From a virus: 37,203 nt of DNA. The notes under the pieces were generated by a model. That model was not told the DNA's origin and did not search any database. It was given only the letters and a program-made list of their open reading frames with translations. The stretch spans positions 1 to 37,203 of IMG/VR virus record IMGVR_UViG_3300027741_001866; one strand, 5' to 3'. Shown here piece by piece: positions 2,598 to 37,203 of this stretch (position 1 is its first letter; every line of letters starts with the position of its first letter). The translations under genes and the position numbers were made by a program.

Positions 2598-4895
2598 ATG
2601 CCAATCAATGTTATTAAGCGTGATGGTCGCAAGGAACCATTGGATATTGAAAAACTTCACAAGGTAGTATTTTGGGCAACCGAAAATTTAAGTGGTGTAA
2701 GTGCAAGTGAATTAGAATTACGTAGTCAAATCCAATTTTATAATAACATTAAAACCAGTGAATTACAAGAAACACTAATTAAGGCTGCTGCTGATCTTAT
2801 TAGTGAAGAAGCAACAAACTATCAATATGTTGCAGGTCGTCTTGTAAATTATCATCTTCGCAAAGAAGTTTATGGTAATTATCAACCATTTCCGCTAATT
2901 GATATTATTAAAAAGAATGTAGGTAGTGGTTTCTATGATGCTAATCTGCTAAGCGATTATACAGAAGAAGAGTGGAATCAGATCAATAAGTTTGTAGAAC
3001 ATGAACGTGATGCTACTCTTACCTATGTTGCAATGGAACAACTTCGTGGCAAATATTTGGTGCAGAATCGTGTCACTGGTGAAATTATGGAAACGCCACA
3101 GGTTGCGTATGCACTTATTGCTGCAACACTATTTGCCAAGTATCCGCAAGAAACTCGCCTAAAGTATGTTCGTGATTATTATGATGCTATTTCCAAGCAT
3201 GATATCTCGCTACCAACGCCGATTATGGCAGGTCTTCGCACACCACAACGTCAGTTCTCCTCTTGCGTGTTGATTGAGACTGGTGATAGTTTAGACAGCA
3301 TTAATGCAACAAGCAGTGCTATTGTTAAGTATGTCTCACAAAAGGCTGGCATTGGCATTGGTGCAGGTTCTATTCGTGCTATTGGTAGTGCCATTCGCAA
3401 GGGCGATGCCTCTCACACAGGCTTAATTCCATTCTATAAGATGTTTCAGGCGGCAGTTAGATCATGCTCACAAGGCGGCGTTCGTAACGGTGCTGCCACC
3501 CTTTATTATCCGCTATGGCATTATGAAGTAGAAGATTTGTTAGTTCTCAAAAACAACAAGGGAACAGAAGATAACCGCATTCGCCAAATGGATTATGGTG
3601 TGCAGTTTAACAAACTTATGTATGAGCGTTTGCTAAGTGGCGGCGACATTACTTGTTTCTCACCTAGCGATGTACCAGGTTTGTATGATGCATTCTTTGC
3701 TGACCAAGACAAGTTCAAAGAACTGTATGAGAAGGCAGAGAAGAATCCAAAGATTCGTAAGAAGACCTATAAGGCAATTGACCTATTCTCACAGTTCATG
3801 GAAGAACGCAAGAATACAGGTCGCATTTACCTAATGAATGTTGATCATGCCAATACTCACGGTGCGTTTATTGAAAGTAAGGCTGTAATCAAGCAAAGCA
3901 ATCTTTGTGTGGAAATTGCGCTACCTACGAAACCACTCAATCATATCTTTGACGAAGAAGGTGAAATTTCACTTTGCACACTCTCTGCAATCAATTGGGG
4001 CAATGTGAAGGAACCAAAAGATTTTGAAAAGATGTGTGATTTGGCTGTTCGTGGACTTGATGCGCTACTTGACTATCAGAACTACCCAGTCATTGCAGCA
4101 CAGATGAGTACCATGAACCGTCGTCCACTTGGCGTTGGTATTATTAACTTTGCTTACTTCCTTGCTAAAAATGATATGAGTTATAGTGATCCTCGTGCGT
4201 TGGCACTCGTTGACGAGTATGCAGAAGCCTGGTCTTACTATCTTATTAAGGCAAGTAATCAACTTGCCATTGAACGTGGTGCTGCACCGAAGAGCAATGA
4301 AACCAAGTATGGCAGCGGTGTTTTGCCTATTGATACCTATAAGCGTGAAGTTGATGAACTTGTTCCACATACGGAGCGTATGGATTGGGAATCACTTCGT
4401 GCAAGTCTTCGTGAACATGGTATCCGCAATAGTACACTTATGGCACTTATGCCAGCAGAAACTAGTGCACAGGTTGCAAATGCTACAAATGGTATTGAAC
4501 CACCTCGTTCACTTATTTCTGTTAAGCAAAGCAAGCACGGTGTATTAAAGCAAGTTGTGCCAGAGTTTCGCAAGTTAAAGAACAAGTATGAATTGTTATG
4601 GGATCAGAAATCACCAGAAGGTTACTTGAAACTAGTTGCAGTATTACAGAAGTATATTGATCAGAGCATTTCAACCAATACTTCATACAATCCAACATTC
4701 TATGCGGATGAAAAGATTCCAATGAGTGTTATGATTGGTCACTTACTGCTATGCTACAAGTATGGTATCAAGACGCTGTATTATTTCAATACTTTTGATG
4801 GACAAGGCGAAGTTGATATTGCAAAATTAGCACAAGAACAACCGCTACTTGCTGCTCTTGATGACCAAGAGAACTGTGAAAGTTGCACTATCTAA
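2598..4895 (+). CDS. nrdA: Class Ia ribonucleoside-diphosphate reductase, alpha subunit
   Basis: 765 residues, normal length for NrdA. It reduces ribonucleoside diphosphates to deoxy forms for phage DNA synthesis. An N-terminal ATP-cone (about residues 3-92) implies allosteric activity control. The active-site set is complete: Cys223 (QFSSCVL), the NLCVE motif with Cys437 and Glu439, Cys460 (SLCTLSAINWG), and the radical-transfer Tyr pair at 728-729 (TLYYFNTFDG). The C-terminus ends in CESCTI, the mobile redox Cys pair that is re-reduced by glutaredoxin or thioredoxin. The start ATG follows the purine-rich site AGAGAGATAAA. It is cotranscribed with or adjacent to nrdB and the glutaredoxin gene. 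No intein or intron interrupts it. Confidence 0.97.
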   Translation: MPINVIKRDGRKEPLDIEKLHKVVFWATENLSGVSASELELRSQIQFYNNIKTSELQETLIKAAADLISEEATNYQYVAGRLVNYHLRKEVYGNYQPFPLIDIIKKNVGSGFYDANLLSDYTEEEWNQINKFVEHERDATLTYVAMEQLRGKYLVQNRVTGEIMETPQVAYALIAATLFAKYPQETRLKYVRDYYDAISKHDISLPTPIMAGLRTPQRQFSSCVLIETGDSLDSINATSSAIVKYVSQKAGIGIGAGSIRAIGSAIRKGDASHTGLIPFYKMFQAAVRSCSQGGVRNGAATLYYPLWHYEVEDLLVLKNNKGTEDNRIRQMDYGVQFNKLMYERLLSGGDITCFSPSDVPGLYDAFFADQDKFKELYEKAEKNPKIRKKTYKAIDLFSQFMEERKNTGRIYLMNVDHANTHGAFIESKAVIKQSNLCVEIALPTKPLNHIFDEEGEISLCTLSAINWGNVKEPKDFEKMCDLAVRGLDALLDYQNYPVIAAQMSTMNRRPLGVGIINFAYFLAKNDMSYSDPRALALVDEYAEAWSYYLIKASNQLAIERGAAPKSNETKYGSGVLPIDTYKREVDELVPHTERMDWESLRASLREHGIRNSTLMALMPAETSAQVANATNGIEPPRSLISVKQSKHGVLKQVVPEFRKLKNKYELLWDQKSPEGYLKLVAVLQKYIDQSISTNTSYNPTFYADEKIPMSVMIGHLLLCYKYGIKTLYYFNTFDGQGEVDIAKLAQEQPLLAALDDQENCESCTI

Positions 4896-4926
4896 AGTAG
4901 TATGATATAATAATAAAAAAGGTAAA

Positions 4927-6036
4927 ATGATGAGTACAGTATTTGACGCAAATGATAAGAGCGACCACACCAAGTCGCTTGCATTTCTAGACCCCAATGG
5001 TGGTGTAAGTATCCAACGTTATGACACGTTAAAGTATAAGCAGTTTGATAAATTAACCGATAAACAATTGGGATTTTTTTGGAGACCCGAAGAAGTTGAT
5101 ATTCTTCGTGATGCGAAAGATTTCAAGGACTTGACAGATAACGAACAGCATATCTTTACAAGCAACTTAAAACGTCAAATCTTACTTGATTCGGTTCAAG
5201 GTCGTGCGCCAGCAGTGGCGTTTGGTCCTATCTGTTCTCTGCCAGAATTAGAAACATGGATTACAACTTGGACATTCAGTGAAACTATTCACTCTCGTTC
5301 TTATACACACATCATTCGCAATGTGTATGCCAATCCATCAAAAGTATTTGATGAGATGATGGATATCCAAGAAATTGTTGATTGTGCTGGCGATATTACT
5401 GCACTCTATGATGAGTTGATTGCATTTAACGCAGAACATGCACAAATGACCGATCCTTCAAAATATGATCATTATGAGCACAAGAAAGCACTTTGGCTTG
5501 CACTTATGAGCGTGAATATTCTTGAAGGTGTTCGCTTCTATGTTTCATTTGCTTGTAGTTGGGCATTTGCTGAATTGAAAAAGATGGAAGGCAATGCAAA
5601 GATTATTAAGTTAATTGCTCGTGATGAAAATCTGCATCTTGCTGGTACACAAACGCTGCTAAAACTTCTACCAAAAGATGATCCAGATTATGCGCAGATT
5701 GAAGTAGAGTGTCGTGAAGATGCAATCAAACTATTTGATGATGCAGTCAAGCAAGAAAAGGCATGGGCGCAGTATCTGTTCAAGGATGGCTCCATGATTG
5801 GTCTCAACTATCAGTTACTTGCTGAATATGTTGAGTTTATTGCTAATAAGCGCATGCAAGCAGTTGGTCTTGGTCAGCCATATTCTACTAAGAATAACCC
5901 ACTGCCTTGGACACAAAAGTGGATTGCTGGCGCAGAAGTTCAAGTTGCTCCACAAGAAACAGAAATTTCATCTTATGTTATTGGTGGCACTGTGCAAGAT
6001 GTGGATAGCAATTCATTTAGTGGATTTAGTTTATAA
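4927..6036 (+). CDS. nrdB: Class Ia ribonucleoside-diphosphate reductase, beta subunit
   Basis: 369 residues; the radical-generating subunit that pairs with NrdA. The di-iron ligands are all visible: Asp65, Glu119, His122, Glu200, Glu234, His237, and the radical Tyr126 in the SETIHSRSYTHII motif. The C-terminal tail (SNSFSGFSL) resembles the NrdB tail that docks on NrdA. Two ATGs are adjacent (4927, 4930); AAAAAGG lies just upstream. The 31-base gap after nrdA contains GATATAATAAT, a possible weak -10 sequence, so a minor internal promoter is possible. Function is certain from motif completeness. Confidence 0.97.
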   Translation: MMSTVFDANDKSDHTKSLAFLDPNGGVSIQRYDTLKYKQFDKLTDKQLGFFWRPEEVDILRDAKDFKDLTDNEQHIFTSNLKRQILLDSVQGRAPAVAFGPICSLPELETWITTWTFSETIHSRSYTHIIRNVYANPSKVFDEMMDIQEIVDCAGDITALYDELIAFNAEHAQMTDPSKYDHYEHKKALWLALMSVNILEGVRFYVSFACSWAFAELKKMEGNAKIIKLIARDENLHLAGTQTLLKLLPKDDPDYAQIEVECREDAIKLFDDAVKQEKAWAQYLFKDGSMIGLNYQLLAEYVEFIANKRMQAVGLGQPYSTKNNPLPWTQKWIAGAEVQVAPQETEISSYVIGGTVQDVDSNSFSGFSL

Positions 6037-11250: not shown

Positions 11251-11281
11251 TTGACAAGTTATAACTTTAGGGCTATAAATA
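11251..11281 (+). promoter_or_regulatory. Promoter, sigma70-like plus T4-late-like box
   Basis: TTGACA (11251-11256), 17-base spacer, TATAAA (11274-11279). The -10 region is also TATAAATA (11274-11281), the T4 late promoter octamer. The predicted start is about 11286-11287, only 2-3 bases before the ATG at 11289. Confidence 0.75.
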
Positions 11282-11288
11282 ATATACC

Positions 11289-12128
11289 ATGAAGATTAAC
11301 GAGATTGTAGAAAATATAACCGAAATGAGTATTAATACGGGCGGTTTAGAATATGAAAGTGCTGTTGTAAAATCAGTGCAACAGGCAATTCCACATTTTG
11401 CAGATCGTGTTAAGTTTACAAATCTAAATTTTGCCACTGCGGGTTATAGCAGTGTAGGTATTGATCTTGAATTACAAGTAAATGGCGCACCATTTAATAT
11501 TGAGATTAAAAAAAATAAAGATGCGCAAATGGGCGGCACAAGTATTCGTTATAATCCTTCAACCGATTTGGCTGAGATAGTAAACAGCGATACCATTGAT
11601 GATGAAGCGCAACCATACTTCTTAAATGCGGTTCAATCAAAGAAGCAAGCCATCATTAACTATATCGAATTTGTTCAAAAGCAAGAACCCGTGGAAATGC
11701 ACAGTAGAATCGATAGTTTTCCAATTGGTACAATTACAAGCAAAGCATGGAATAATGCTAAAAGTGCTGGTTTACTCGCAGCACTTGGTGAAAAAGTTAG
11801 TTTTAATGATACATCAATTATCACCAAAGCATACAATTTGAAAAAAGTATATTATATTCAGATCGGTGGTGCTGGTCTATTCTACCTTAATGATAACATA
11901 TACGATCTGCCCGTGCCAAAATTCGAAGGTCACATTCAGATTGAGTTTAGACTTGGACGAAATGGTGGTGTGGTGAAAAAGATTGGCAATGAAACCATCA
12001 AGATATTAAATGCTGGCTATCGTTGCCAGGGTCGTCTTAAAACGAACATCAAGAGCAGTTTGAGCCTTGATAATCCTGCAGAAGCATTTCAAATCCTAGC
12101 CTATATTGACGACCAAACTAAATCGTGA
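11289..12128 (+). CDS. PD-(D/E)XK nuclease-like protein
   Basis: 279 residues. The segment GIDLELQ followed about 10 residues later by FNIEIKKN has the Asp...Glu-x-Lys spacing of the PD-(D/E)XK nuclease superfamily. An upstream helix LEYESAVVKSVQQA carries a Glu that could complete the site. The C-terminal half has beta-rich segments and a basic GYRCQGRLK patch. The promoter lies so close that the message would be almost leaderless; no Shine-Dalgarno is visible. It overlaps the next small gene by 4 bases (GTGA). A role in host DNA breakdown, recombination or DNA processing is possible; the function is inferred only from the motif. Confidence 0.7.
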   Translation: MKINEIVENITEMSINTGGLEYESAVVKSVQQAIPHFADRVKFTNLNFATAGYSSVGIDLELQVNGAPFNIEIKKNKDAQMGGTSIRYNPSTDLAEIVNSDTIDDEAQPYFLNAVQSKKQAIINYIEFVQKQEPVEMHSRIDSFPIGTITSKAWNNAKSAGLLAALGEKVSFNDTSIITKAYNLKKVYYIQIGGAGLFYLNDNIYDLPVPKFEGHIQIEFRLGRNGGVVKKIGNETIKILNAGYRCQGRLKTNIKSSLSLDNPAEAFQILAYIDDQTKS

Positions 12129-12280
12129 AAGCCAACGTAGAAAAAATATGGCATTTTACCTGTGAGTTCTGTAAAATGTGGTTTAGTATCGCCGTAATGG
12201 ACGATTGGAAACCCAAAAAACTATATTGCCCACATTGTGGCAAGCAACAACAAATAACCCTTGACATAAACCCTGAATGA
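12125..12280 (+). CDS. 51-residue zinc-ribbon protein
   Basis: A short gene starting with GTG at 12125, overlapping the stop of the previous gene (GTGA), and ending at TGA 12278-12280. It has two CxxC knuckles: Cys13/Cys16 (FTCEFCKMWF) and Cys35/Cys38 (LYCPHCGK), 18 residues apart, the layout of a small zinc ribbon. There is no other domain. Translational coupling to the nuclease-like gene suggests a joint function such as nucleic acid binding. The promoter of the downstream tmRNA (-35 at 12261) lies inside its last codons. Confidence 0.75.
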   Translation: MKANVEKIWHFTCEFCKMWFSIAVMDDWKPKKLYCPHCGKQQQITLDINPE

Positions 12281-12291
12281 TGCTATAAATA
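12261..12291 (+). promoter_or_regulatory. Promoter of the tmRNA gene
   Basis: TTGACA (12261-12266), 17-base spacer, TATAAATA (12284-12291), giving a predicted start near 12297. Both the sigma70-type hexamers and the T4-late octamer fit, so the tmRNA could be made early and late. Confidence 0.8.
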
Positions 12292-12304
12292 ATATACTAA
12301 TATT

Positions 12305-12600
12305 GTTGAGGCGAAACAGAATAAACATGCTGGACGAGGGTGCAATTCCCTCATGCTCCACCATAGATACACTACCCAGACGTGGGGTATGATACATAGA
12401 TTAGTTAACTCTAATGCTATTATGGTTTGAGTCCATATCGGTGTATCTTTGATGGGGCATAATTAGGATCGACAGGTGTAGTAAAGGTTTTGAGTAGATG
12501 TTAGTAAACGTAATAAATGCTAACGATAATGCATTAATTGAAATGGCTCTAGCAGCTTAATTTCTTGGGTATGGGTTCCACCTCGAAACAGAACGGGCCT
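12305..12600 (+). ncRNA. ssrA: Circularly permuted two-piece tmRNA
   Basis: The acceptor piece comes first: T arm GAGGG/CCCTC (12336-12340, 12348-12352) around a 7-base loop, then ATGCTCC (12353-12359) and ACCA (to 12363). After about 90 bases of spacer the coding piece begins with GGGGCAT (12454-12460). This pairs over all 7 positions with ATGCTCC (one G-U) and continues with the tmRNA-type D-loop sequence AGGATCGACAGG. The tag frame is at 12519-12560 and encodes ANDNALIEMALAA followed by TAA. It starts with the alphaproteobacterial-type AND and ends in LAA, the ClpXP degradation signal. The spacer would be removed to give two RNAs held by base pairing (CCTC 12581-12584 with GAGG 12308-12311 may contribute). 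It rescues stalled ribosomes and tags truncated proteins. Outer ends are approximate. Confidence 0.93.
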
Positions 12601-12618
12601 ACTTTTTTATTGAGGGCG

Positions 12619-13089
12619 ATGAAAAAAATTTTAATCTCTTTGGCGCTGCTCTTAACAGTGAGTTATCCTGTTTTAGCCAAAGACCCCAAACCCCAAAAAC
12701 CTATTGTTACGGAATCTCCTAGCGAGTGTGTTGCCCAAGCCATCTATAATGAGGCTCGTGGTGAAGACTATGAAGGGCAGGTTGCAATTGCCTGGGTAGT
12801 TCGCAATAGATTACAAAGTGGAAAATTTCCTAATTCACCGTGTAAAATTGTTTATGAAAAACATGGTATGGATTGCCAGTTTACCTTTATCTGCTTTCCA
12901 TTCAAGCCAATAGATAAAGTAGATGACCGCAATGATTTTTATAGCATTGCAATGATGGTGTTGTATTCAACCTATATGGTTGATCCAACCGGCGGTGCTC
13001 TATACTTTAATAACAAACCGTTTAAGAACAAACAATTCAAGTTTATTAAAAAGATAGGACACCACTGGTTTTATACAGATAAAGATTAG
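12619..13089 (+). CDS. Secreted SleB-type cell wall hydrolase (putative endolysin)
   Basis: 156 residues from the ATG at 12619. This start was chosen because GAGG precedes it and a clean signal peptide follows (MKKILISLALLLTVSYPVLA, then Lys-Asp); an in-frame ATG at 12565 would lie inside the tmRNA. The mature part is a Hydrolase_2/SleB domain: YNEARGEDYEGQVAIAWV with the likely catalytic Glu45, VVRNRL, and GGALYFNN near the C-terminus. The family cleaves peptidoglycan as a lytic transglycosylase or amidase. The export signal means it could reach the periplasm without a classical holin. It converges with the lipase gene, overlapping its end by 4 bases. A role in host lysis is the simplest reading. 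Confidence 0.87.
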   Translation: MKKILISLALLLTVSYPVLAKDPKPQKPIVTESPSECVAQAIYNEARGEDYEGQVAIAWVVRNRLQSGKFPNSPCKIVYEKHGMDCQFTFICFPFKPIDKVDDRNDFYSIAMMVLYSTYMVDPTGGALYFNNKPFKNKQFKFIKKIGHHWFYTDKD

Positions 13090-18867: not shown

Positions 18868-19971
18868 ATGCGTATTATCAATGATACCAAGTTGGATTTC
18901 TCCGACGTTTTAATCTTGCCTAAACGCTCCACGTTAACAAGCCGTGAAGAAGTATCGCTAGAACGAACTTTTACATTTCGTAATAGTAATCGTTATTGGA
19001 GCGGCACTCCCATCATGGCGGCAAATATGGATGGTGTGGGGACATTTGAAATGGCAGAGAAACTTGCCACTTATAAAATGTTTACCACGCTACGTAAAAA
19101 TTATACAACCGAAGAACTTGTTCTATGGATTGGACGCACGGGTTATAATATCCAAGAATATTGGGCTTATGGACTTGGTATCAAGGACGAAGAATACGAA
19201 AAGTTCAAACTTGTCAAGAGTAAGTTGCCAGAGTATAATATCAAGTTTGTTTGTATTGATGTTGCCAATGGTTATACAGAACGATTTGTAGAGTTTGTTA
19301 AACGTTTTCGTGCCGAAAATCCTGATCTAATTATCATTGCTGGCAATGTAGTAACTGGTGATATGACAGAGGAGTTGCTACTAAGTGGAGCAGATATTAT
19401 TAAAGTTGGTATTGGTCCTGGTAGTGTCTGTACTACTCGTCTCAAAACGGGTGTTGGTTATCCACAGCTTAGTGCTATTATTGAGTGTGCTGATGCTGCT
19501 CATGGGCTTGGTGGACATATCATTAGCGATGGCGGTTGCGTTTGTCCTGGCGATGTGTCTAAGGCTTTTGGGGCTGGCGCAGACTTCGTGATGCTTGGCG
19601 GCATGTTAGCTGGTCATGATCAAGGTGGCGGTGATATTGTATCACATACTACTCGTAGTGACCAAGTTTGGATTAAAGATGATGGCACCCCAGATGATAT
19701 CTTTACTACTAAACAGTTTGTTAAGTTCTATGGCATGAGTTCTAAGTCTGCCAATGAAAAGCATAGCGGTGGATTGAAATCCTATCGTGCAGCAGAAGGC
19801 AAGGAAGTTGCCGTGCCTTATCGTGGCGATGTTGGCGATACCGTTCAGGATATTCTTGGTGGTGTTCGTTCTACACTTACCTATACAGGCAGCAAATCGC
19901 TGAAAGAACTATCCAAACGCACAACATTTATTCGTGTCAATAATCAAGTCAACAATGTTTTTGGAAAGTAA
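18868..19971 (+). CDS. guaC: GMP reductase
   Basis: 367 residues, aligning throughout with bacterial GuaC (about 347). It opens with [16 protein letters not shown] and [17 protein letters not shown] and has no CBS domains, which separates it from IMP dehydrogenase. The catalytic Cys188 is in [12 protein letters not shown], followed by [29 protein letters not shown] and [11 protein letters not shown]. The YRAAEGKEV and [13 protein letters not shown] elements close the barrel. About 20 extra residues ([14 protein letters not shown] region, about 250-272) lie before FYGMSS compared with the E. coli protein as I remember it. It converts GMP to IMP with NADPH, feeding purine salvage toward adenine nucleotides. 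AGGT precedes the ATG. Confidence 0.94.
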
Positions 19972-20960
19972 TGGCATATTCAAAAGATAATCTTCCACAA
20001 GGTTTTTATGTCTATCAATATATCCGTGAAGATGGAACCCCTTACTATATTGGCAAAGGTAAAGGTGCTAGGCTATATGATACTAGTAAGAGAACTATTC
20101 GAGCGCCAAAAAACAAAGATAGAATTATAATTGTTCAAGAAAATTTAAGTGAAGAATTAGCATTTAAATTAGAAAAAGAATTAATTGCCAAATATGGAAG
20201 AAAGAATAATCAAACTGGAATACTAAGAAATCTCACTGATGGCGGAGAAGGTTCTAGTGGCACAATTTGGAGTATAGAACAACGTAAAAAAATATCTATA
20301 GCAAATAAAAATAGAAGTCCAGAACTTCTTGCTAAAATTAAACAAGCAATTCAAGAAAGCAGAACCCCAGAAGTAGGCGCTAAAATATCGGCTGCTAACA
20401 AAAATAGATCACCAGAAATAAACGCTAAAATATCAGCGGCTAATAAAGGTCGTAAACCTTGGAATAAAGGTTTAACGTATAATGAAGATTCTCGAATTAA
20501 AAGAAATTTTAATAGAAAAGTAAGCGAAGAAACTCGTGCTAAATTATCTAATTCATTAAAGGGAAAAAGTACTGGTAAAAAACATAGTCCAGAAACTATT
20601 GAAAAATTAAAAAAAGCAAGAGCCAAACAAATATTTTCAGATGAAACTCGTGCCAAACTACGTGGGAGAAAACTTAGTGATGAAACACGTGCCAAGATAT
20701 CTAGTAAATTAAAAGGAAGAAAGCATAGTGACGAAAGTCGTGCTAAAATGCGTGGAAGAAAGCATAGTGACGAAACTCGTACTAAAATGCGTGGAAGAAT
20801 ACACAATAAAGAAACTCGTGCTAAAATTTCTTGTGCAGTAAAAAACAGAAAAGTTAGCCAAGAAACTCGGCTAAAAATGTCTGCTGCTAGAAAATTATAT
20901 GTATTAAAAAACCAAACTCCAATAGAATTAAATCCAGATTTATTTGAAATAATTAAATGA
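19971..20960 (+). CDS. GIY-YIG homing endonuclease with NUMOD3 repeats
   Basis: 329 residues. The nuclease domain is N-terminal: GFYVYQYI (11-18), YYIGKGKG (25-32), Arg34 and Glu70 in KLEKELIAKYG. A GGEGSSG linker follows. Residues about 100-315 hold roughly ten NUMOD3-like helix motifs (SEETRAKLSNSLKGK; SDETRAKMRGRKHS), a DNA-binding repeat typical of free-standing phage Seg/F-type endonucleases. The start overlaps the guaC stop (TAATG). The codons are much richer in A than in neighbouring genes, consistent with recent arrival. Such enzymes spread themselves by cutting unoccupied sites nearby, so guaC or hsp20 of related phages is a likely target. Confidence 0.92.
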   Translation: MAYSKDNLPQGFYVYQYIREDGTPYYIGKGKGARLYDTSKRTIRAPKNKDRIIIVQENLSEELAFKLEKELIAKYGRKNNQTGILRNLTDGGEGSSGTIWSIEQRKKISIANKNRSPELLAKIKQAIQESRTPEVGAKISAANKNRSPEINAKISAANKGRKPWNKGLTYNEDSRIKRNFNRKVSEETRAKLSNSLKGKSTGKKHSPETIEKLKKARAKQIFSDETRAKLRGRKLSDETRAKISSKLKGRKHSDESRAKMRGRKHSDETRTKMRGRIHNKETRAKISCAVKNRKVSQETRLKMSAARKLYVLKNQTPIELNPDLFEIIK

Positions 20961-26479: not shown

Positions 26480-27943
26480 ATGCTTTTAGGTATCAATGCT
26501 AACAATCATGACGCAAGTATTGCTGTTGTTGACGGGTCTAATATTCTGTTTGCGGGTCACGCTGAACGGTATAGCAGAGTAAAGAATGATCCACATCTTA
26601 ATGAAGCATTGATTAACGATGCGTTACAATATGGTATACCTGATAAAATAGTATGGTATGAACAGCCATGGAAGCGTACTGTTCGTAATCTTATAAGCGG
26701 TCAACGTCCACTACACTATAACTTAAAATCCTATCTTAAGAAATATGGTCTTGACAAGATACCTGTTGTTACTACACCGCATCACGGTGCGCATGCTGCT
26801 ATGGGCTATTATACCAGTGGATTTAGAGATGCAGCCATCGTAGTTATAGATGCTATTGGTGAATTAGAATGCACCTCTGTATGTCGTGGAATTAACAACA
26901 AAGTTAGCAGAGTTTGGCACAATGTTTATCCACAAAGCATTGGGCTATTTTATAGTGCCGTCACAGAATATCTTGGGTTTAAACCTAACGAAGAAGAATA
27001 TATTGTTATGGGCATGGCAGCATACGGCGAACCAAAGCATCTTAAAACAATGCTCAATGAGTTCTTTGGAACATGGTCACCGCCTAATGTAGAGTTTAAA
27101 CATAACCTACATCGTGGTATGCGTTGGTGGAATAAACCTAAAGATGAAGATTGGAAACCAGAAGATATTGCAGCTTCTGCACAAGCAATTTATGAGCAAT
27201 ACTTAATGGCAATTTGCCGCTATGCTCGTGAAGTAGTTGGCAGTGATAATCTTGTATTGGTAGGTGGTTGCGCTCTTAACTGTGTAGCAAATAGCCGATT
27301 GAAAACATTTACTGGATTTAGTAATATATGGGTGCCACCAAATCCTGGCGATGCTGGTTTAAGTTTAGGTGCAGTTACGTATCATACTAAGCAACATGTG
27401 CATTTAGAACATGCATTTCTTGGATATAACATTGATCGTAGGGTTGATGTTCGTGCAGTAGTTGATGCCCTAGAAGGGGGTCAAGTTGTAGGCATTGCCA
27501 ATGGTCGTGCAGAGTTTGGTCCACGAGCGTTGGGTAACCGTTCACTGATTGCTGATCCTCGTGGACCAGATGTAAAAGACCGTGTAAATGCAATCAAGAA
27601 ACGTGAGCCATTTCGTCCATTTGCTCCAATTATATTGAAATCTTGGTTTAGGGAATACTTTTATAGTAAGATGCGAGTAAATCATGATTATATGCAATGG
27701 GCGGATGCGTGTATGGACCCACAATCTTTTCCAGCAATTTGTCACGTAGATGGAACTTCTCGTGTTCAAACAATTGACCATCCTACTCCAAGCATAATGT
27801 ATAAGATATTAGAAGCATGGTATGCTCGTGCCCGTTGTCCAATGTTGCTTAACACCAGCCTTAACATTAAAGGTGAACCATTGGTAAATACATGGGCAGA
27901 TGCTGAACGGTTTTCTGAATTGAACAATGTGGTGGTATTCTAA
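26480..27943 (+). CDS. Carbamoyltransferase, NodU/CmcH/TobZ family
   Basis: 487 residues. The N-terminal ASKHA-type domain starts with GINANNHDASIAVVDG; the metal/active-site motif HHGAHA is at 101-106 (PHHGAHAAMGYYTSGF), VVIDAIGE follows, and GGCALN is at 262-267. The YrdC-like C-terminal part has AEFGPRALGNRSLIADPR and LNTSLNIKGEPLV. The family transfers carbamoyl from carbamoyl phosphate, via a carbamoyl-adenylate, to hydroxyl groups of sugars or antibiotics. Phage members are common in marine myoviruses, and some carbamoylate hydroxymethylcytosine in DNA. No hydroxymethylase is visible in this window, so DNA or glycan is open. Confidence 0.93.
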   Translation: MLLGINANNHDASIAVVDGSNILFAGHAERYSRVKNDPHLNEALINDALQYGIPDKIVWYEQPWKRTVRNLISGQRPLHYNLKSYLKKYGLDKIPVVTTPHHGAHAAMGYYTSGFRDAAIVVIDAIGELECTSVCRGINNKVSRVWHNVYPQSIGLFYSAVTEYLGFKPNEEEYIVMGMAAYGEPKHLKTMLNEFFGTWSPPNVEFKHNLHRGMRWWNKPKDEDWKPEDIAASAQAIYEQYLMAICRYAREVVGSDNLVLVGGCALNCVANSRLKTFTGFSNIWVPPNPGDAGLSLGAVTYHTKQHVHLEHAFLGYNIDRRVDVRAVVDALEGGQVVGIANGRAEFGPRALGNRSLIADPRGPDVKDRVNAIKKREPFRPFAPIILKSWFREYFYSKMRVNHDYMQWADACMDPQSFPAICHVDGTSRVQTIDHPTPSIMYKILEAWYARARCPMLLNTSLNIKGEPLVNTWADAERFSELNNVVVF

Positions 27944-28605
27944 TGCGTGTAGCAATTATTGGTGACAGTTATACATATAGTTATAAAGATACCTATTTAG
28001 AAACCATATGCCATGAACTTAATCTTGAAGTTATCCATCAAGTAGGATTTCGTGGTTTCTCGCAATATAAAATATATCTTGAATTTTTAGAAATTATAAA
28101 AAATAATCCAGAGATAATTATTTGTTGCCATACAGAACATAGTAGATTTTATCATCCTACTGAACAGATTAAAAAAAATTATAATCCTCTAATAAATTAT
28201 AATAAAAATTTTCGCAATGCTGTCAACGAATATTTTATTCATATTTATAATGAAGATTTTTCTAAATTTATTCACAATTTAATTATTTACGAAATGCAAA
28301 AAATTTGTAAAGAAAAAAATATAAAGTTAATTAATATACCATGTTTTGAACATAACCATATTGTTAAAAATTATGGGCTATGGATTTTGGCAAATGACGG
28401 AATAGCTAGTTGTAGCAACATCGATTATAAACGTGAATTTGATCAAGATCGTTGGACACTAATTAATGATGCAAAGTTATTAAATCATTTTTCATCACAC
28501 GGACATCAAGTTTTAGCAAATAATATAATTCCACATATTAAAACGTATATTACAAGCGACCAAGAATTTCATATTTCGTTGCTTTTTCCTGAACTATTTG
28601 CTTGA
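27943..28605 (+). CDS. SGNH/GDSL-like hydrolase
   Basis: 220 residues. MRVAIIGDSYTYSYKD carries the GDS block I at the N-terminus, with Ser9 as the presumed nucleophile. NHFSSHGHQVLANNI near residue 185 resembles block V, though the usual Asp-x-x-His is not clear. The start overlaps the carbamoyltransferase stop (TAATG). The gene is markedly more A/T-rich than its neighbours (long A and T runs between 28080 and 28350), suggesting later acquisition. Probable role: ester hydrolysis or deacylation of a sugar or lipid, perhaps on the same substrate as the carbamoyltransferase; this is inference. Confidence 0.65.
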   Translation: MRVAIIGDSYTYSYKDTYLETICHELNLEVIHQVGFRGFSQYKIYLEFLEIIKNNPEIIICCHTEHSRFYHPTEQIKKNYNPLINYNKNFRNAVNEYFIHIYNEDFSKFIHNLIIYEMQKICKEKNIKLINIPCFEHNHIVKNYGLWILANDGIASCSNIDYKREFDQDRWTLINDAKLLNHFSSHGHQVLANNIIPHIKTYITSDQEFHISLLFPELFA

Positions 28606-28629
28606 CAAACTTTAAAATTGTGTTATATT
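28602..28629 (+). promoter_or_regulatory. Promoter of uvdE
   Basis: TTGACA (28602-28607), 16-base spacer, TATATT (28624-28629). It overlaps the stop of the SGNH gene. The predicted start is at or next to the ATG at 28636, and no ribosome binding site is visible. Confidence 0.75.
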
Positions 28630-28635
28630 CTTAAT

Positions 28636-29661
28636 ATGACACAAAAACGTATCGGCTTTTGCTGCAAATGGATTGACACCGTGGATCAACTTGATGGCTT
28701 TAAGCCTAAAGATGATGCACTCCGCTATAACAACAAGACCACGACAGTGGCTTGGCTAAACCGTCAAACCAAAGCGGTTGCTGAGCAACGACTGTGGGAT
28801 ATTATGGAGCATAATACAGATGCCACATTACGATTGGTGGAGCGTGTGGGAACACTTGCACCAGAACTACGAATGGTACGCCTTAGTAGCGACATACTCC
28901 CTGTTTACACTGAGTCAACTTGGGGCTATTTCTGGACTGATAAACACCTTCGTCAAACCATTGCGAAGCGACTGGCCAAGGTTGGAGATGCTGCTAAACG
29001 TCACGATGTTAGGGTCAGTTTTCATCCTGGCCAATTTTGCGTCCTTGCTAGTGACCGTGAGAATGTTGTCGCCAATTCTATTGCTGAATTTGAATACCAT
29101 GCTGATTTGGCTCGTTGGATGGGTTTTGGTTCTAGTTGGCATGATCACGGTTTTAAGATCAATGTGCATATTAGTGGTAAGGGTGGTCCAATGGCTATAC
29201 GAGCCGTATACTCCCGCCTCTCGCCCGAAGCTAGAAACCTTATTACAATAGAAAACGAGGAATATACCTATGGACTTGATTCTTGTCTCACTTTGGGTGA
29301 TATCTTGCCTATCGTGTTTGATACTCATCATCACTGGATTCATTCGGGAGAATACATCGCACCGTCTGACGACCGTATTAAAATGGTCAAAGACAGTTGG
29401 CGTGGTGTCCGCCCTTCTCTTCATTACTCTCTTAGTAGTGAATCTATGGGTATCACTAATGCTAGTAGACCTGACCTATCCACACTAATGGAGAGTGGTC
29501 ATAAGAAAGGTACTCTACGTGCGCACAGTAATTTTATGTGGAACAGTTCAGTCAACCAATATGTAGGTGAACTGTGGAACGATTTTGATATACAAGTAGA
29601 AGCAAAGGCTAAAAACCTTGCTAGTTTTAAGTTACACGAAGAATTAACCAAAGGAAAATAA
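28636..29661 (+). CDS. uvdE: UV-damage endonuclease
   Basis: 341 residues from the ATG at 28636 (MTQKRIGFCCKWID). An upstream in-frame start at 28618 lies before the promoter -10 and is rejected. UVDE family features: RIGFCCKW at the start, LAPELRMVRLSSDILPV, the metal-site motif VSFHPGQFCVLASDRENVV, HADLARWMGFG, a NVHISGKGG block, ITIENEEYTYG and DTHHHWIHSG. These TIM-barrel enzymes nick DNA 5' of UV photoproducts, which suits a phage of sunlit water. The transcript appears leaderless. It ends directly at the start of metK. Confidence 0.93.
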   Translation: MTQKRIGFCCKWIDTVDQLDGFKPKDDALRYNNKTTTVAWLNRQTKAVAEQRLWDIMEHNTDATLRLVERVGTLAPELRMVRLSSDILPVYTESTWGYFWTDKHLRQTIAKRLAKVGDAAKRHDVRVSFHPGQFCVLASDRENVVANSIAEFEYHADLARWMGFGSSWHDHGFKINVHISGKGGPMAIRAVYSRLSPEARNLITIENEEYTYGLDSCLTLGDILPIVFDTHHHWIHSGEYIAPSDDRIKMVKDSWRGVRPSLHYSLSSESMGITNASRPDLSTLMESGHKKGTLRAHSNFMWNSSVNQYVGELWNDFDIQVEAKAKNLASFKLHEELTKGK

Positions 29662-30777
29662 ATGAGTTATCTGTTTACTAGTGAAAGCGTAAGTGAAGGA
29701 CATCCAGATAAAGTTGCTGATGCTATCAGTGATGCGGTTTTGGATTTGATGATGGCACCACAGGATAAGTCTTATCGCTGTGCGTGTGAGACACTTGTTA
29801 CTACCAATCAGGTTGTAATTGCGGGTGAATATAAGGGTGAACTTGATAATGCGTTGGTTGAAACAGCCGTTCGCAATGTTATCAAGGATATTGGATATGA
29901 GCAAAGTGGATTTGATTGGAGAACTGTAAAGGTTCTTAATCTAATGCATGGACAAAGTGCAGATATTGCGCTTGGGACAGATACGTTTGGTGCTGGCGAT
30001 CAAGGATTAATGTTTGGCTATGCTTCTAATGAAACACTAAGTTATACAAGTAAAGATACGCCAACATATATGCCTAGTGCTATTCAGTATAGCCATGATG
30101 TTGTGAAGGCACTGACGGAGCATCGTAAGAGCGGTCGTGATTGGCTTGGTCCAGATGCTAAGAGCCAGATTACTGTTGAATACAATGATGATAGCAATCC
30201 ATTCCGTATTGATAAAGTAGTATGCTCTACACAGCACAGTGAAAATACTGATATGCATACGGTTCGCACACGGGTAGAACAGCTTATTCGTAGTGTGTTG
30301 CCTGACCGTTTGGTTGATACTCGCACAGAGTTCCATATCAATCCTACTGGACGCTTTGTTATTGGTGGACCAGATGGTGATACTGGTCTAACTGGTCGTA
30401 AGATTATTGTTGATACTTACGGCGGCTATTCCCCACATGGTGGTGGTGCTTTCAGTGGTAAAGACCCTACCAAGGTTGACCGCAGTGCTGCATACATGAT
30501 GCGTTATCTTGCCAAGAATATTGTGGCAAGTGGTCGTGCAGATTGGGCAACTGTTCAGGTATCTTATGCTATTGGTCTTGAACAGCCAATGAGTTTCTAT
30601 GTTGAGAGCAATGGTGATAGCCGTGGTTTGACACATTGGATTCGTGATAACGTTGATCTTACTCCACTTGGTATTATCAACAAGTTTGACCTGTTCCGTC
30701 CTATCTATAGTTCTACTACAAACTATGGTCACTTTGGTAAAGATGGATTGCCATGGGAAACGGTTGATCTTTTCTAA
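29662..30777 (+). CDS. metK: S-adenosylmethionine synthetase
   Basis: 371 residues, near the bacterial length of about 384. Complete motif set: SEGHPDK (His14, Asp16, Lys17), GAGDQGLMFGYA (110-121), and GGPDGDTGLTGRKIIVDTYG and GGGAFSGKDPTKVDRSAAYM (235-280) for ATP and methionine binding. It makes SAM from ATP and methionine. In a phage this could raise SAM for DNA or RNA methylation, or resupply the pool during infection. It starts immediately after the uvdE stop behind AAAGGAAAATAA, so the two are one transcript. Confidence 0.95.
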   Translation: MSYLFTSESVSEGHPDKVADAISDAVLDLMMAPQDKSYRCACETLVTTNQVVIAGEYKGELDNALVETAVRNVIKDIGYEQSGFDWRTVKVLNLMHGQSADIALGTDTFGAGDQGLMFGYASNETLSYTSKDTPTYMPSAIQYSHDVVKALTEHRKSGRDWLGPDAKSQITVEYNDDSNPFRIDKVVCSTQHSENTDMHTVRTRVEQLIRSVLPDRLVDTRTEFHINPTGRFVIGGPDGDTGLTGRKIIVDTYGGYSPHGGGAFSGKDPTKVDRSAAYMMRYLAKNIVASGRADWATVQVSYAIGLEQPMSFYVESNGDSRGLTHWIRDNVDLTPLGIINKFDLFRPIYSSTTNYGHFGKDGLPWETVDLF

Positions 30778-30786
30778 AATAATATA

Positions 30787-30828
30787 TTGACATAATTGTT
30801 GCACTGCGGTATAAATATATGCAGTGCA
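30787..30828 (+). promoter_or_regulatory. Promoter with TATAAATA in the loop of an inverted repeat
   Basis: TTGACA (30787-30792), 17-base spacer, TATAAATA (30810-30817). Arms TGCACTGC (30800-30807) and GCAGTGCA (30821-30828) flank the box perfectly. The ribosome site AAAGGAAG lies 3 bases after the 3' arm, so it adjoins rather than sits in the stem. Confidence 0.72.
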
Positions 30829-34268: not shown

Positions 34269-34718
34269 ATGCGTAAAATTGGCGTAATTTGTGTATTTTT
34301 AATGACAATGCCTACATTTGCATCTGCAAGTGACATGATTTTTAGTTTTAAAAACCCACAATTTAGCGGTGATGGTTTCTCTAGTCATGTGTTGACTATT
34401 GAGAATGAAGAGTATACTCGTCGCCAAGCACGTGAATCTGCTAAAAAAGCAGAAAAAGATGCAGCAGCCGCAGCAGCAAATAATACAAATTTAAGTAAGT
34501 TTCTCAACAATCTGGAAAGCCGCATCTACGCACAACTTAGTTTGCAGTTAAGCAATGCTATGTTTAGCGATGGCGCATCCACTGGCACAATGCAATTCGA
34601 GGGCAGCACTATAAATTGGGTTAAAGATAGTGTTACTCAAACAATCTCCTTATCTGTAATTGATGCCACTGGTAACCGTACAGACATTACAGTTCCAATA
34701 GGGAGTTTCAAATTCTAA
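34269..34718 (+). CDS. csgF: Curli assembly protein CsgF-like
   Basis: 149 residues. The signal peptide (about 20 residues, ending ASA) is followed by DMIFSFKNPQFSGDGF, matching the start of mature CsgF (TMTFQFRNPNFGG in E. coli as I recall), the part that inserts in the CsgG pore. The middle is an Ala/Lys helix (about 55-80), and the C-terminus is beta (TITVPIGSFKF-like). In curli systems CsgF forms a second constriction in CsgG and couples curlin export to nucleation. The stop overlaps csgG (TAATG). Expression is probably late and hairpin-gated. Confidence 0.88.
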   Translation: MRKIGVICVFLMTMPTFASASDMIFSFKNPQFSGDGFSSHVLTIENEEYTRRQARESAKKAEKDAAAAAANNTNLSKFLNNLESRIYAQLSLQLSNAMFSDGASTGTMQFEGSTINWVKDSVTQTISLSVIDATGNRTDITVPIGSFKF

Positions 34719-35536
34719 TGAATAAAGCAATACTATTATTAATTTCAGCACTCGCACTAGCAGGGTGCCAAACAACCGCACCTTATGAAGCAAGAGTACC
34801 AACTGCTGCAAGCGATATGCCGCAGAAAGTAACTAAGAGTTATTATAATGCACTGCTAAACATGGCACCACCAGACGGTCCACCAATTACTATTGCAATG
34901 TATGGATTTGGTGATAAAACTGGTCAGCGCAAAGAAAATGATAAGTTTTCAGTGCTAAGTAGTGCTGTCACTCAAGGTGGAGAAGTATTTCTTATCAAGG
35001 CACTGCAAGACGCAGGTCATGGTAAATGGTTCCAAGTTGTAGAACGTGTTGGTTTAGATGATCTTATTAAAGAACGTCAACTTATTCGTAATCAACGTGA
35101 AACCTATGAAGGAAAAGATGCAAAGCCACTGGCACCAATGTTGATTGCTGGTGTTATGGTTGAAGGCGGTATCGTAGGATATGATACTAATATACAAAGC
35201 GGTGGTGCAGGTGCTGCACTGCTTGGAATTGGAGCAAGTCAACAATATAGAACCGACGAGGTTACTGTGATTGTAAGATTGATCAGCGTTCATACGGGAG
35301 AAGTTTTAATCTCTGCTGGCGCTACTAAAACAATCTTAAGCACAGGCGGAAGTGGCACCCTAGTCACATTCCTAGATCAGAGCACGATGAGTTTACAAGT
35401 CGAGGCTGGTGCAAATGTCAACGAACCCACCACATATGCTGTGCGTCTGGCAACAGAAGCAGCAGTTGTGGATATGATTAAACAGGGTGCACAAAAGAAT
35501 CTATGGAGTTATGCGACTGCTAAGAAGAAGTCGTAA
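34718..35536 (+). CDS. csgG: Outer-membrane curli secretion channel CsgG-like
   Basis: 272 residues (E. coli about 277). The lipoprotein signal has lipobox LALAGC with Cys17. TIAMYGFGDKTGQRKEND, FQVVERVGLDDLIKERQLIR, LIAGVMVEGGIVGYDTNIQS and VTVIVRLISVHTGEVL follow the CsgG domain order; the transmembrane-hairpin residues and the YDTN segment are visible. CsgG forms a nonameric ungated peptide-secretion pore in the outer membrane. A CsgE gene, the usual plug, is not seen in the window. With csgF upstream and a curlin-like gene downstream this is a coherent secretion operon. Confidence 0.92.
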   Translation: MNKAILLLISALALAGCQTTAPYEARVPTAASDMPQKVTKSYYNALLNMAPPDGPPITIAMYGFGDKTGQRKENDKFSVLSSAVTQGGEVFLIKALQDAGHGKWFQVVERVGLDDLIKERQLIRNQRETYEGKDAKPLAPMLIAGVMVEGGIVGYDTNIQSGGAGAALLGIGASQQYRTDEVTVIVRLISVHTGEVLISAGATKTILSTGGSGTLVTFLDQSTMSLQVEAGANVNEPTTYAVRLATEAAVVDMIKQGAQKNLWSYATAKKKS

Positions 35537-35558
35537 AACTCCTTAAAGGAGTAGGCAT

Positions 35559-36245
35559 TTGAAAAACATTATTAAATCTGCAATTGGATTTGCGGTCATA
35601 ATGCTAGCGAGTCAAAGTTTTGCTGGTACGATAAACAACGTTTATATCGACCAAGTGGGCAGTGGAAGCACGATCACGCTCAATCAACAAGGTTCCAACA
35701 ACGAGATTGGAAATGACACGACCGCAACTACTCTACATGGAAATGGACAAACTGTAAGCATTTCACAAGTTGGTAGTGGCAATACACATGTTGTCAATGT
35801 TCAAGGTGCTAACAGCGTTATTAACAGCGTTGTAACTGGTGATAACAATAATACTACGGTTGCGTGTGGTGCTGCTCCAAGTAGCAGTTGTAATGATACT
35901 GCTATTACTGCCAATGTTAGTGGTAACACTAATAACACAAGCATTACTGCTGGTTCAAAAAGTACGGTTACTGCAGAAGTTAGTGGCAGCACTAACAATA
36001 CTACAATTAGTAGCACAACTACAAACTTAATGGGTGCGACGGTTAACGCTAAAGAAACTGGTGACTCAAACGTGGTAAATATTAATCAGAACGGACCAGC
36101 AGGTGCTAACGGCTTTATCTCAAAAGTTGAAGTAACTGGTGCAAGTAACAACGTGGCGGTGACTCAAAGTGGCACAACTGATAGCACAGTCAATATTAAG
36201 AGTACTGGTTCTAATAACAGTATTGCTGTTACCAGCGGCAACTAA
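35559..36245 (+). CDS. Curlin-repeat (CsgA/CsgB-like) secreted protein
   Basis: 228 residues from TTG 35559 behind AAAGGAG. Signal peptide (MKNIIKSAIGFAVIMLASQS then FAG, about 22 residues). The mature part is Asn/Ser/Thr/Gly-rich with repeats of the type (V/I)xIxQxGxxNxxxVxxxG, for example VYIDQVGSGSTITLNQQGSN and VSISQVGSGNTHVVNVQGAN. This is the beta-strand-turn pattern of curlin amyloid units, though the central copies are degenerate. One Cys pair (CGAAPSSSC, about residue 103) is unusual for curlin. It is a probable substrate of the CsgG/CsgF pair. The last 77 bases overlap the next gene in the +1 frame. Confidence 0.83.
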   Translation: MKNIIKSAIGFAVIMLASQSFAGTINNVYIDQVGSGSTITLNQQGSNNEIGNDTTATTLHGNGQTVSISQVGSGNTHVVNVQGANSVINSVVTGDNNNTTVACGAAPSSSCNDTAITANVSGNTNNTSITAGSKSTVTAEVSGSTNNTTISSTTTNLMGATVNAKETGDSNVVNINQNGPAGANGFISKVEVTGASNNVAVTQSGTTDSTVNIKSTGSNNSIAVTSGN

Positions 36246-37203
36246 TGCTGCTATTGGTGTGGTAACTGAGCAGAACGGAATGGCAGAAATACAACGTGAT
36301 AAAGCAAGTATACCAAGCAATGTAAACAGCGGCGTCGAAATGAACGATGCCGTTGTTACTGCCAAAGCACGTGTTGGTATTACTTTTGAAGATGATACCA
36401 AAGTTGAGATAACAGAGCAGAGCAAACTTGTTATCGATGATTTCGTGTATGATCCTGCACACAGTGATGCTGGTAAGTTAGGTTTAAAAGTTGCAATAGG
36501 AACTGCTCGCTATGCCAGTGGTCAGATTGCCAAAGATAATCCACAAAGTGTAAAAATTGAAACTCCCACTGCTACAATTGGTGTGCGTGGAACAGATTTT
36601 AGTATGACAGTAGATGAGTTGGGTCGCAGTCTTATTATTCTGCTGCCAAGTTGTCCAGTAGGGTATAAAAACATTGATAAAGATTGCGTCACTGGTAAGA
36701 TTGATGTTACGACTGATATGGGTACTGTGTACCTTGACAAGCCATTTCAAGCAACCTCTACAAGTGCCAAAGAACAAAACCCATCCAAGCCTGTTATTCT
36801 TGCGCTAAGTCCAGAACAAATTAACAATATGCTTATTCTACAGCCACCAAAGAAAGTGGTTGAAGAACAGCATGGACAAAAGACAGCACTTGATATCAAC
36901 TTTCTCGACAAAGATTTTTTAAAGTTTGATGAATTAAATATGGATTATCTAACAGCATTTAACAAGTTAAGTATCAATAATCTTGATGTAGAGTTCTTGG
37001 CTAATATGTTGGACCTTGCTAATGCTTCACTGCTAGCAAGTATGTTAGGTGGTGAAAACCAAATGCTGCCACAATATACTGCAAACAAGGCAGCAGGATT
37101 AAAGTATGTCAAGGTAGATACTAACCTTACGCTATATCGTCAAGGCGGTAATAGTTATAGTCAACTAACTGTAGACAAGGATAGCCCAACTACTTTTATT
37201 TTA
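36169..37203 (+). CDS. Secreted FecR-domain protein (3' partial)
   Basis: An open frame of 345 codons to the window end. The start GTG 36169 is the first start codon after an in-frame TGA (36160) and lies inside the curlin gene. Only this start gives a signal peptide: MAQLIAQSILRVLVLITVLL then LPAATNA, cut before AIGVV. A FecR domain follows: GVVTEQNGMAEIQRD, GVEMNDAVVTAKARVGITF, TKVEITEQSKLVIDDFVYDP, ARYASGQIAKD and TPTATIGVRGTDF. FecR domains of this secreted type occur in periplasmic or surface proteins and often bind carbohydrate or peptidoglycan-like ligands; the exact role here is unknown. Residues after about 200 are unassigned. No strong ribosome site, so translational coupling to curlin is likely. 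Confidence 0.8.
   Translation, partial: MAQLIAQSILRVLVLITVLLLPAATNAAIGVVTEQNGMAEIQRDKASIPSNVNSGVEMNDAVVTAKARVGITFEDDTKVEITEQSKLVIDDFVYDPAHSDAGKLGLKVAIGTARYASGQIAKDNPQSVKIETPTATIGVRGTDFSMTVDELGRSLIILLPSCPVGYKNIDKDCVTGKIDVTTDMGTVYLDKPFQATSTSAKEQNPSKPVILALSPEQINNMLILQPPKKVVEEQHGQKTALDINFLDKDFLKFDELNMDYLTAFNKLSINNLDVEFLANMLDLANASLLASMLGGENQMLPQYTANKAAGLKYVKVDTNLTLYRQGGNSYSQLTVDKDSPTTFIL

Follow-up and report, generated by a model that had tools for sequence, protein, structure and literature searches.

The window analysed here, a whole stretch of 37,203 bases that makes up a virus record, encodes phage-type proteins that include a ribonucleotide reductase and tail-spike-like and tail-fibre-like proteins. 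We have found that it carries a permuted two-piece tmRNA gene on the plus strand at 12296-12608, recognised by Infernal with the Rfam models and by ARAGORN (Table 1). The alpha_tmRNA model (RF01849) matches with 100.1 bits (E 2.3e-26; gathering score 50) and the tmRNA_permuted model (RF04321) with 98.3 bits (E 3.9e-18; gathering score 47). A sequence-only reading of the window had proposed a virus-encoded permuted tmRNA at this place and had named the lack of a covariance-model match beforehand as refuting it; the strong matches obtained bear the proposal out, and ARAGORN, which is independent of the Rfam models, returns a permuted tmRNA with the same tag as had been read by eye, ANDNALIEMALAA, followed by TAA. 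In the Rfam scan of the window the alpha model lies above its gathering score and no beta or cyano permuted subtype is listed; several sister alleles exceed the gathering score only with the general permuted model and not with the alpha model. Other details of that reading hold as well: the acceptor piece with its CCA precedes the coding piece, the strands ATGCTCC and GGGGCAT pair at 7 of 7 positions, and 90 nt lie between the CCA and GGGG. The limits that it gave, 12305-12600, are slightly too narrow, in that the promoter begins at 12261, the gene is predicted to start at about 12296 (a 5' end placed from the position of the promoter) and the 3' hairpin with its T run extends to 12608. We did not accept the outer limits of ARAGORN, 12271-12651, as the true ends, since they run into the promoter and the downstream gene. 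The 5' part of the coding piece comprises GGGGCAT (G1-7), a GATCGAC segment, the P2-type 3' strands and the region before the resume codon; the tag frame opens with an alanine resume codon (GCU) and has a hydrophobic degradation end before the stop. The 3' hairpin is absent from a simple terminator scan, which admits only loops of 3-8 nt, shorter than the loop here. The locus is an additional member of an already known class, the permuted tmRNAs of phages.

Table 1. The tmRNA gene, its parts and its flanks in window coordinates
Feature	Position	Strand	Basis or detail
Preceding gene, function not assigned	11289..12128	+	PHROG 26930, unknown function
Promoter	12261..12289	+	TTGACA 12261-12266; 17-nt spacer ending TGC (extended -10); TATAAA 12284-12289
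Acceptor piece	12296..12363	+	Rfam RF01849/RF04321 alignments; helix covariation
5' strands of P2-type helices	12312-12332	+	within acceptor piece
T arm GAGGG/CCCTC	12336-12352	+	within acceptor piece
3' acceptor strand ATGCTCC	12353-12359	+	within acceptor piece
Encoded ACCA	12360-12363	+	upstream of coding piece, which starts at 12454
Intervening segment, 90 nt, presumably removed in processing	12364..12453	+	fold; closing-stem covariation
Coding piece, 5' part	12454..12518	+	Rfam alignments; covariation; allele comparison
GGGGCAT	12454-12460	+	pairs with 12353-12359, third pair G-U
Tag frame ANDNALIEMALAA and stop TAA	12519..12560	+	ARAGORN; tag codons 12519-12557, TAA 12558-12560
3' terminal hairpin of coding piece	12573..12608	+	stem GGGTTC 12573-12578 / GGGCCT 12595-12600
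Loop of 3' hairpin, CACCTCGAAACAGAAC, 16 nt	12579-12594	+	sequence
AC then six-T run after 3' hairpin, possible terminator	T run 12603-12608	+	sequence
Downstream gene, cell-wall hydrolase (SleB-like lysin)	12619..13089	+	Pfam Hydrolase_2 PF07486, 72.5 bits

Using the downstream lysin gene as bait we gathered 22 viral contigs from IMG/VR, one of which (L002) begins inside the tmRNA. In each of the 21 relatives in which the region is intact, a permuted tmRNA that exceeds the Rfam gathering score occupies the same place, and the window and its relatives together hold 16 distinct tmRNA sequences, which we refer to as alleles. Nine distinct tags are found among the 16 alleles, all of them 13 amino acids long and of the form ANDN...L[AV]A followed by a stop. 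In 18 of the 21 relatives the tmRNA, at 55-83% identity to the window, is more divergent than the adjoining lysin gene, at 72-89% (the lysin figure for L019 and L023 is not usable in this comparison, and L003, which has a window-like allele, gives 94% for the tmRNA and 92% for the lysin), so that the RNA gene varies faster than its neighbour while its structure is kept.

The promoter is constant across this variation: the -35 box, the spacing, the TGC and the -10 box (TTGACA-N17-TATAAA) are identical in 16 of 16 alleles. The octamer at the -10 position, TATAAATA (12284-12291), is the T4 late-promoter consensus as well. The combination TTGACATAA-N-TATAAATA has 2 sites in the window versus 0 in 100 shuffles; TATAAATA alone occurs 5 times versus 4.4 expected, which is no enrichment. 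We think it unlikely that the gene is driven by T4 late-promoter control by itself, because the octamer is unenriched and a complete sigma-70 promoter with a -35 box lies at the same site. We note that the arrangement TTGACA-N17-TATAAATA is also found just upstream of two other window genes (11251-11281 and 30787-30817), and it is possible that these sites form a promoter class shared within the phage. A scan of viral contigs with the promoter pattern returned mostly unrelated loci, and no Pfam family was found for the gene that precedes the promoter.

On an alignment of the 16 alleles we named 37 pairs in six helices. The proportion of cells paired is 94.1%, a measure favoured by the use of the window's own structure as reference; 25 of the 37 pairs show changes on both sides, which such a bias does not explain. 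The covariation score is 0.581, compared with 0.195 for shuffled alignments and 0.054-0.144 when the partner strand is slid, and covariation is strong in all six helices, including the spacer-internal stem and the 3' hairpin (100% of cells paired; two-sided changes in five of six pairs). The acceptor stem is paired at 7 of 7 positions, with G-U as the third pair, in every one of the 16 alleles; the alignment view has this G-U in 15 of 16, apparently owing to a gap in L023. G3:U70 is the alanine identity element for alanyl-tRNA synthetase. Single-sequence MFE folding of the whole gene was no better than that of shuffles (z -0.64), as might be expected of an RNA that is pseudoknotted and in two pieces. 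The spacer of the window has a 7-bp closing stem (GATACAC 12366-12372 / GTGTATC 12441-12447) around three predicted hairpins and folds at -24.4 kcal/mol (z -1.82). Although Rfam RF01849 draws what lies between the two pieces as a loop without pairing, at this locus it is closed by a covarying stem, which is paired in 16 of 16 alleles and has two-sided changes in three of its seven pairs; the spacers range from 30 to 90 nt across the alleles and their inner sequences diverge widely. We infer that in the precursor the spacer stem would adjoin the acceptor stem and aid processing.

Phage tmRNAs have been known for years, and in the papers that we found their benefit is only speculated on. Early cases, together with the decoy RNA of mycobacteriophage DS6A, are described in PMC4131195. 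A survey of 18,146 genomes recorded tmRNA in 402 phages (2.3%), with 133 unique structures, of which 53 are two-piece, 50 of these 53 coming from marine or aquatic phages (PMC9004378); a tmRNA database holds 79 bacteriophage sequences, and RF04321 has been defined (PMC11915505). The sequence-only reading had called such a copy uncommon in a tailed phage, which is only partly right given the survey figures and the further permuted tmRNAs that we detected in Mosig, Melnitz, DSS3P8, DSS3_MAL1, RcSimone-Hastad, Cp1R7A-A1, RHph_I1_18 and Phosso. Methylophilales phage Melnitz (MZ577095) and Pelagibacter phage Mosig (MT647606) likewise have a permuted two-piece tmRNA with alpha_tmRNA and tmRNA_permuted above threshold; no smpB was found in Mosig, as in the window's group, and Melnitz-type phages carry the curli genes csgG and csgF, as does the window. 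The tags of Melnitz and Mosig, ANDNYVPVDYALAA and GEDNFALAA, differ from that of the window, however, and the tmRNA adjoins a lysin gene in the window but a late-promoter accessory gene and thyX in Mosig. A glutamine riboswitch is present in Melnitz, whereas the Rfam scan found none in the window, and Mosig has a T4-type Gp23 capsid, whereas a 130-kb relative contig (G002), which may be incomplete, has no Gp23 match. By the Gp23 difference, the window's group and Melnitz/Mosig probably belong to different phage groups. We also considered a relationship to T4 and set it aside on the lack of Gp23 in the 130-kb contig, possibly a fragment; the contig does have a T4-type clamp loader and a baseplate-wedge-like protein.

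Among tailed phages of Alphaproteobacteria, the roseophages and Rhodobacter phage DSS3P8, DSS3_MAL1 and RcSimone-Hastad also have permuted tmRNAs of the alpha type, with tags that differ from the window's (ANINNAPMEMAIAA, ANTNAAPMEMAIAA and ANDNVRMDAQALAA); in DSS3_MAL1 and DSS3P8 the permuted tmRNA is closely preceded by a GOLLD RNA (L221 894-1357 and L218 844-1277). The Sinorhizobium jumbo phage Phosso (PV764938.1) has a permuted tmRNA at about 349553-350242 that its depositors left unannotated (alpha_tmRNA 108 bits), and the 3' hairpin module of this tmRNA is that of the window (89.8% over 59 nt, E 4e-13). A gene for a PAAR protein lies upstream of the tmRNA in both Phosso and the window. 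The intervening segment of Phosso is about 410 nt long (L216 2478-2890), against 90 nt in the window, and its predicted fold is stronger than that of any of 100 shuffles (z -3.33); no Rfam family was found for it, and it is possibly an unknown structured RNA nested in the tmRNA gene.

Chromosomal ssrA genes of Alphaproteobacteria (RF01849) have the gene order, the helices, the ANDN tag start and the CACCTNGNAACAGAA-loop 3' hairpin that we see in the window, but the bacterial 3' stems that we read, e.g. GGAGGC/GCCTCC, differ from the viral one. The 24-letter hairpin pattern GGTTCCACCTNGNAACAGAACGGG, which was chosen from the window and is therefore biased to window-like ends, occurs in at least 118 viral contigs, and among the matches listed 110 of 118 have a tag-like frame upstream of the motif; of the remaining eight listed, seven resemble tmRNA ends that are truncated or variant, and L272 is the exception. 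We note that in L272, near 10744 on the reverse strand, the motif follows an apparent protein reading frame and not a tmRNA tag, and perhaps the hairpin module has been reused there as a terminator. In a sample of 385 Alphaproteobacteria genomes the viral pattern (GGGTTC/GGGCC stem) occurs in none, whereas the shorter alpha-type loop CACCTNGNAACAGAA occurs in 75, on different stems where these were read and in several cases plainly at ssrA ends. This contrast between viral and bacterial hairpins is suggestive, though not proof, of a phage-borne tmRNA lineage. If a virus-only 3' hairpin holds in larger bacterial sets, it would be a marker for tracing the spread of phage tmRNA.

We have also found that the 130-kb relative contig encodes a ClpA-like protein (L032 1172-3409, minus strand), which matches TIGR02639 with 832.6 bits, under the equivalog cut-off of 993, and whose best PDB match is E. 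coli ClpA (E 2.5e-186). The protein has two Walker A motifs and, at residue 607, an IGF loop whose counterpart in the alignment with E. coli ClpA is the IGL loop, by which ClpA docks on ClpP. Neighbouring genes encode a DnaJ-like protein (3440-4318) and a protein with a GTA-type holin domain (4357-5172). Homologues of the ClpA-like protein occur in Phosso, which has two ClpP-family genes, and in Atu_ph07. No permuted tmRNA was found in Atu_ph07, for which we took the 490,380-base record G560, and so the ClpA-like gene and the tmRNA are not always together.

When the blocks of the alleles are clustered at 85% identity they do not share a common history: acceptor types 0 and 1 both occur with 3' type 0, acceptor types 1 and 5 both occur with spacer type 1, and four coding-5' types share tag type 2. 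Judged by these combinations, the alleles are built as mosaics from modules that are exchangeable. The relatives all come from metagenome assemblies and conserved flanks would favour chimaeric joins, and one might therefore take the mosaics, as distinct from the tmRNA itself, for assembly chimaeras from mixed metagenomes. We consider this improbable, since several alleles were recovered in identical form from different data sets (L004, L006, L007 and L010; L011, L012 and L013; and the mosaic of L016 and L017), so that plain assembly error is unlikely to account for all of the mosaics, and since the window's 3' module is present in the isolate Phosso too. Assembly error may nevertheless lie behind some singleton mosaics. 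A limited literature search, mostly without subscription papers, turned up neither module exchange nor a virus-specific 3' hairpin for phage tmRNA, which is not proof of novelty for either. Tentatively, and with more doubt than conviction, we suggest that phages have a tmRNA lineage of their own with a virus-specific 3' hairpin, which would spread between unrelated tailed phages and swap acceptor, spacer, tag and 3' modules while the acceptor stem is kept paired, and of which one large-phage branch would work with a phage ClpA-like unfoldase that sets the fate of tagged proteins.

As to function, we think that the locus very probably (at roughly 0.8) encodes a functional two-piece tmRNA of the alphaproteobacterial type that uses the SmpB of the host. 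A strong sigma-70-type promoter would start a single precursor just before the acceptor piece, and host tRNA-processing enzymes would excise the structured spacer of 90 nt to yield an acceptor RNA that ends in CCA and a coding RNA that starts with GGGGCAU; the acceptor stem and the P2 helices, whose structure covariation shows, would hold the two pieces together. Host AlaRS would charge the RNA through G3:U70, and host SmpB and EF-Tu would bring it to ribosomes that have stalled on broken mRNAs, where translation would resume at GCU and append ANDNALIEMALAA as a tag for host proteases or, where present, the phage ClpA-like unfoldase. No smpB was found in the 23 phage records searched (10 of 14 control genomes were positive), so that host SmpB would have to serve; compatible host SmpB and AlaRS are an assumption of this mechanism. 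The gain for the phage would presumably be freed ribosomes and the clean-up of truncated proteins during infection, as mRNA is cut and host transcription falls, and the gene would be part of a phage-borne tmRNA lineage that evolves by module exchange. It is also conceivable, though in our view unlikely, that the main gain is redirected proteolysis, with an altered tag sending proteins to a phage ClpA-like unfoldase or to a chosen host protease and so recycling host proteins. Recycling has been proposed before (PMC9004378), tags differ between the alleles, and the ClpA-like protein with its IGF loop, its homologues in two large phages and the ClpP-family genes of Phosso fit such a role; however, the ClpA-like gene is found in one relative contig only and not in the window, a search of nine lake-phage contigs for ClpP found none, the ClpA-like gene occurs in Atu_ph07 with no permuted tmRNA, and all of the tags keep ordinary ANDN...L[AV]A ends that should be readable by host proteases. 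That the RNA is a decoy that titrates host SmpB and thereby inhibits host tmRNA has a precedent in the tRNA-like-domain-only RNA of mycobacteriophage DS6A (PMC4131195; PMC11915505), but a decoy would have no need of a tag, and the fact that the coding piece is maintained here in full, with its tag frame conserved and with a stop codon and the 3' hairpin, makes this very improbable. We give scarcely any credence to the idea that the gene is a passenger, a host ssrA copy acquired by recombination and drifting with no role in the phage: ssrA is a common integration site, which makes capture plausible (PMC9004378), but the helices all show compensatory changes, the promoter and G3:U70 are invariant, every allele has an intact tag frame, the gene is present in all 21 relatives, and the 385 Alphaproteobacteria genomes, a partial sampling, hold no close homologue that would point to recent capture, the matches being confined to short blocks (the best with E 5.5e-6 over 48 nt). 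The locus lends itself to direct tests of function, of the choice of tag and of the compatibility of modules, as it offers 16 natural alleles with one promoter at one position, and the ClpA-like unfoldase of the relative is a testable link between tagging and proteolysis by the phage.

The tmRNA had been expected to point to the host lineage, and it does so weakly. The alpha-type features, together with the module shared with Phosso, lean towards an alphaproteobacterial host, but tmRNA type can mislead: Melnitz has a tmRNA of the alphaproteobacterial type and a gammaproteobacterial host (PMC9004378). The helicase of the 130-kb relative is 51% identical to that of Pseudomonas phage PA5oct and 49% to that of Agrobacterium phage Atu_ph07, which gives no clear pointer. 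A search for the host with a tmRNA DNA pattern in bacterial genomes returned six stretches, two of which have an ARAGORN tmRNA; both are from Sphingomonas, with the tag ANDNEALAIAA, and are not close. Burkholderiales were rejected as a source, with 4 of 150 genomes above the cut-off and tags such as ANDERFALAA, unlike ANDN.

Lastly, we note several other genes in the window. Curli genes lie at 34269-37203 and encode CsgF (PF10614, 61.3 bits), CsgG (PF03783, 154.7 bits) and a FecR-domain protein; csgG and csgF are also found in Melnitz and in SAR11 myophages (PMC9004378 for the Melnitz type). A curlin-repeat-like protein at 35559-36245 was recognised by eye, a Pfam search giving no match, and the window may additionally encode a curli fibre subunit. 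At 18868-20960 a GMP reductase gene is directly followed by a homing-endonuclease-like gene (phrog_314), and genes for a NodU/Nol-like carbamoyltransferase and a methionine adenosyltransferase (metK) lie at 26480-30777.
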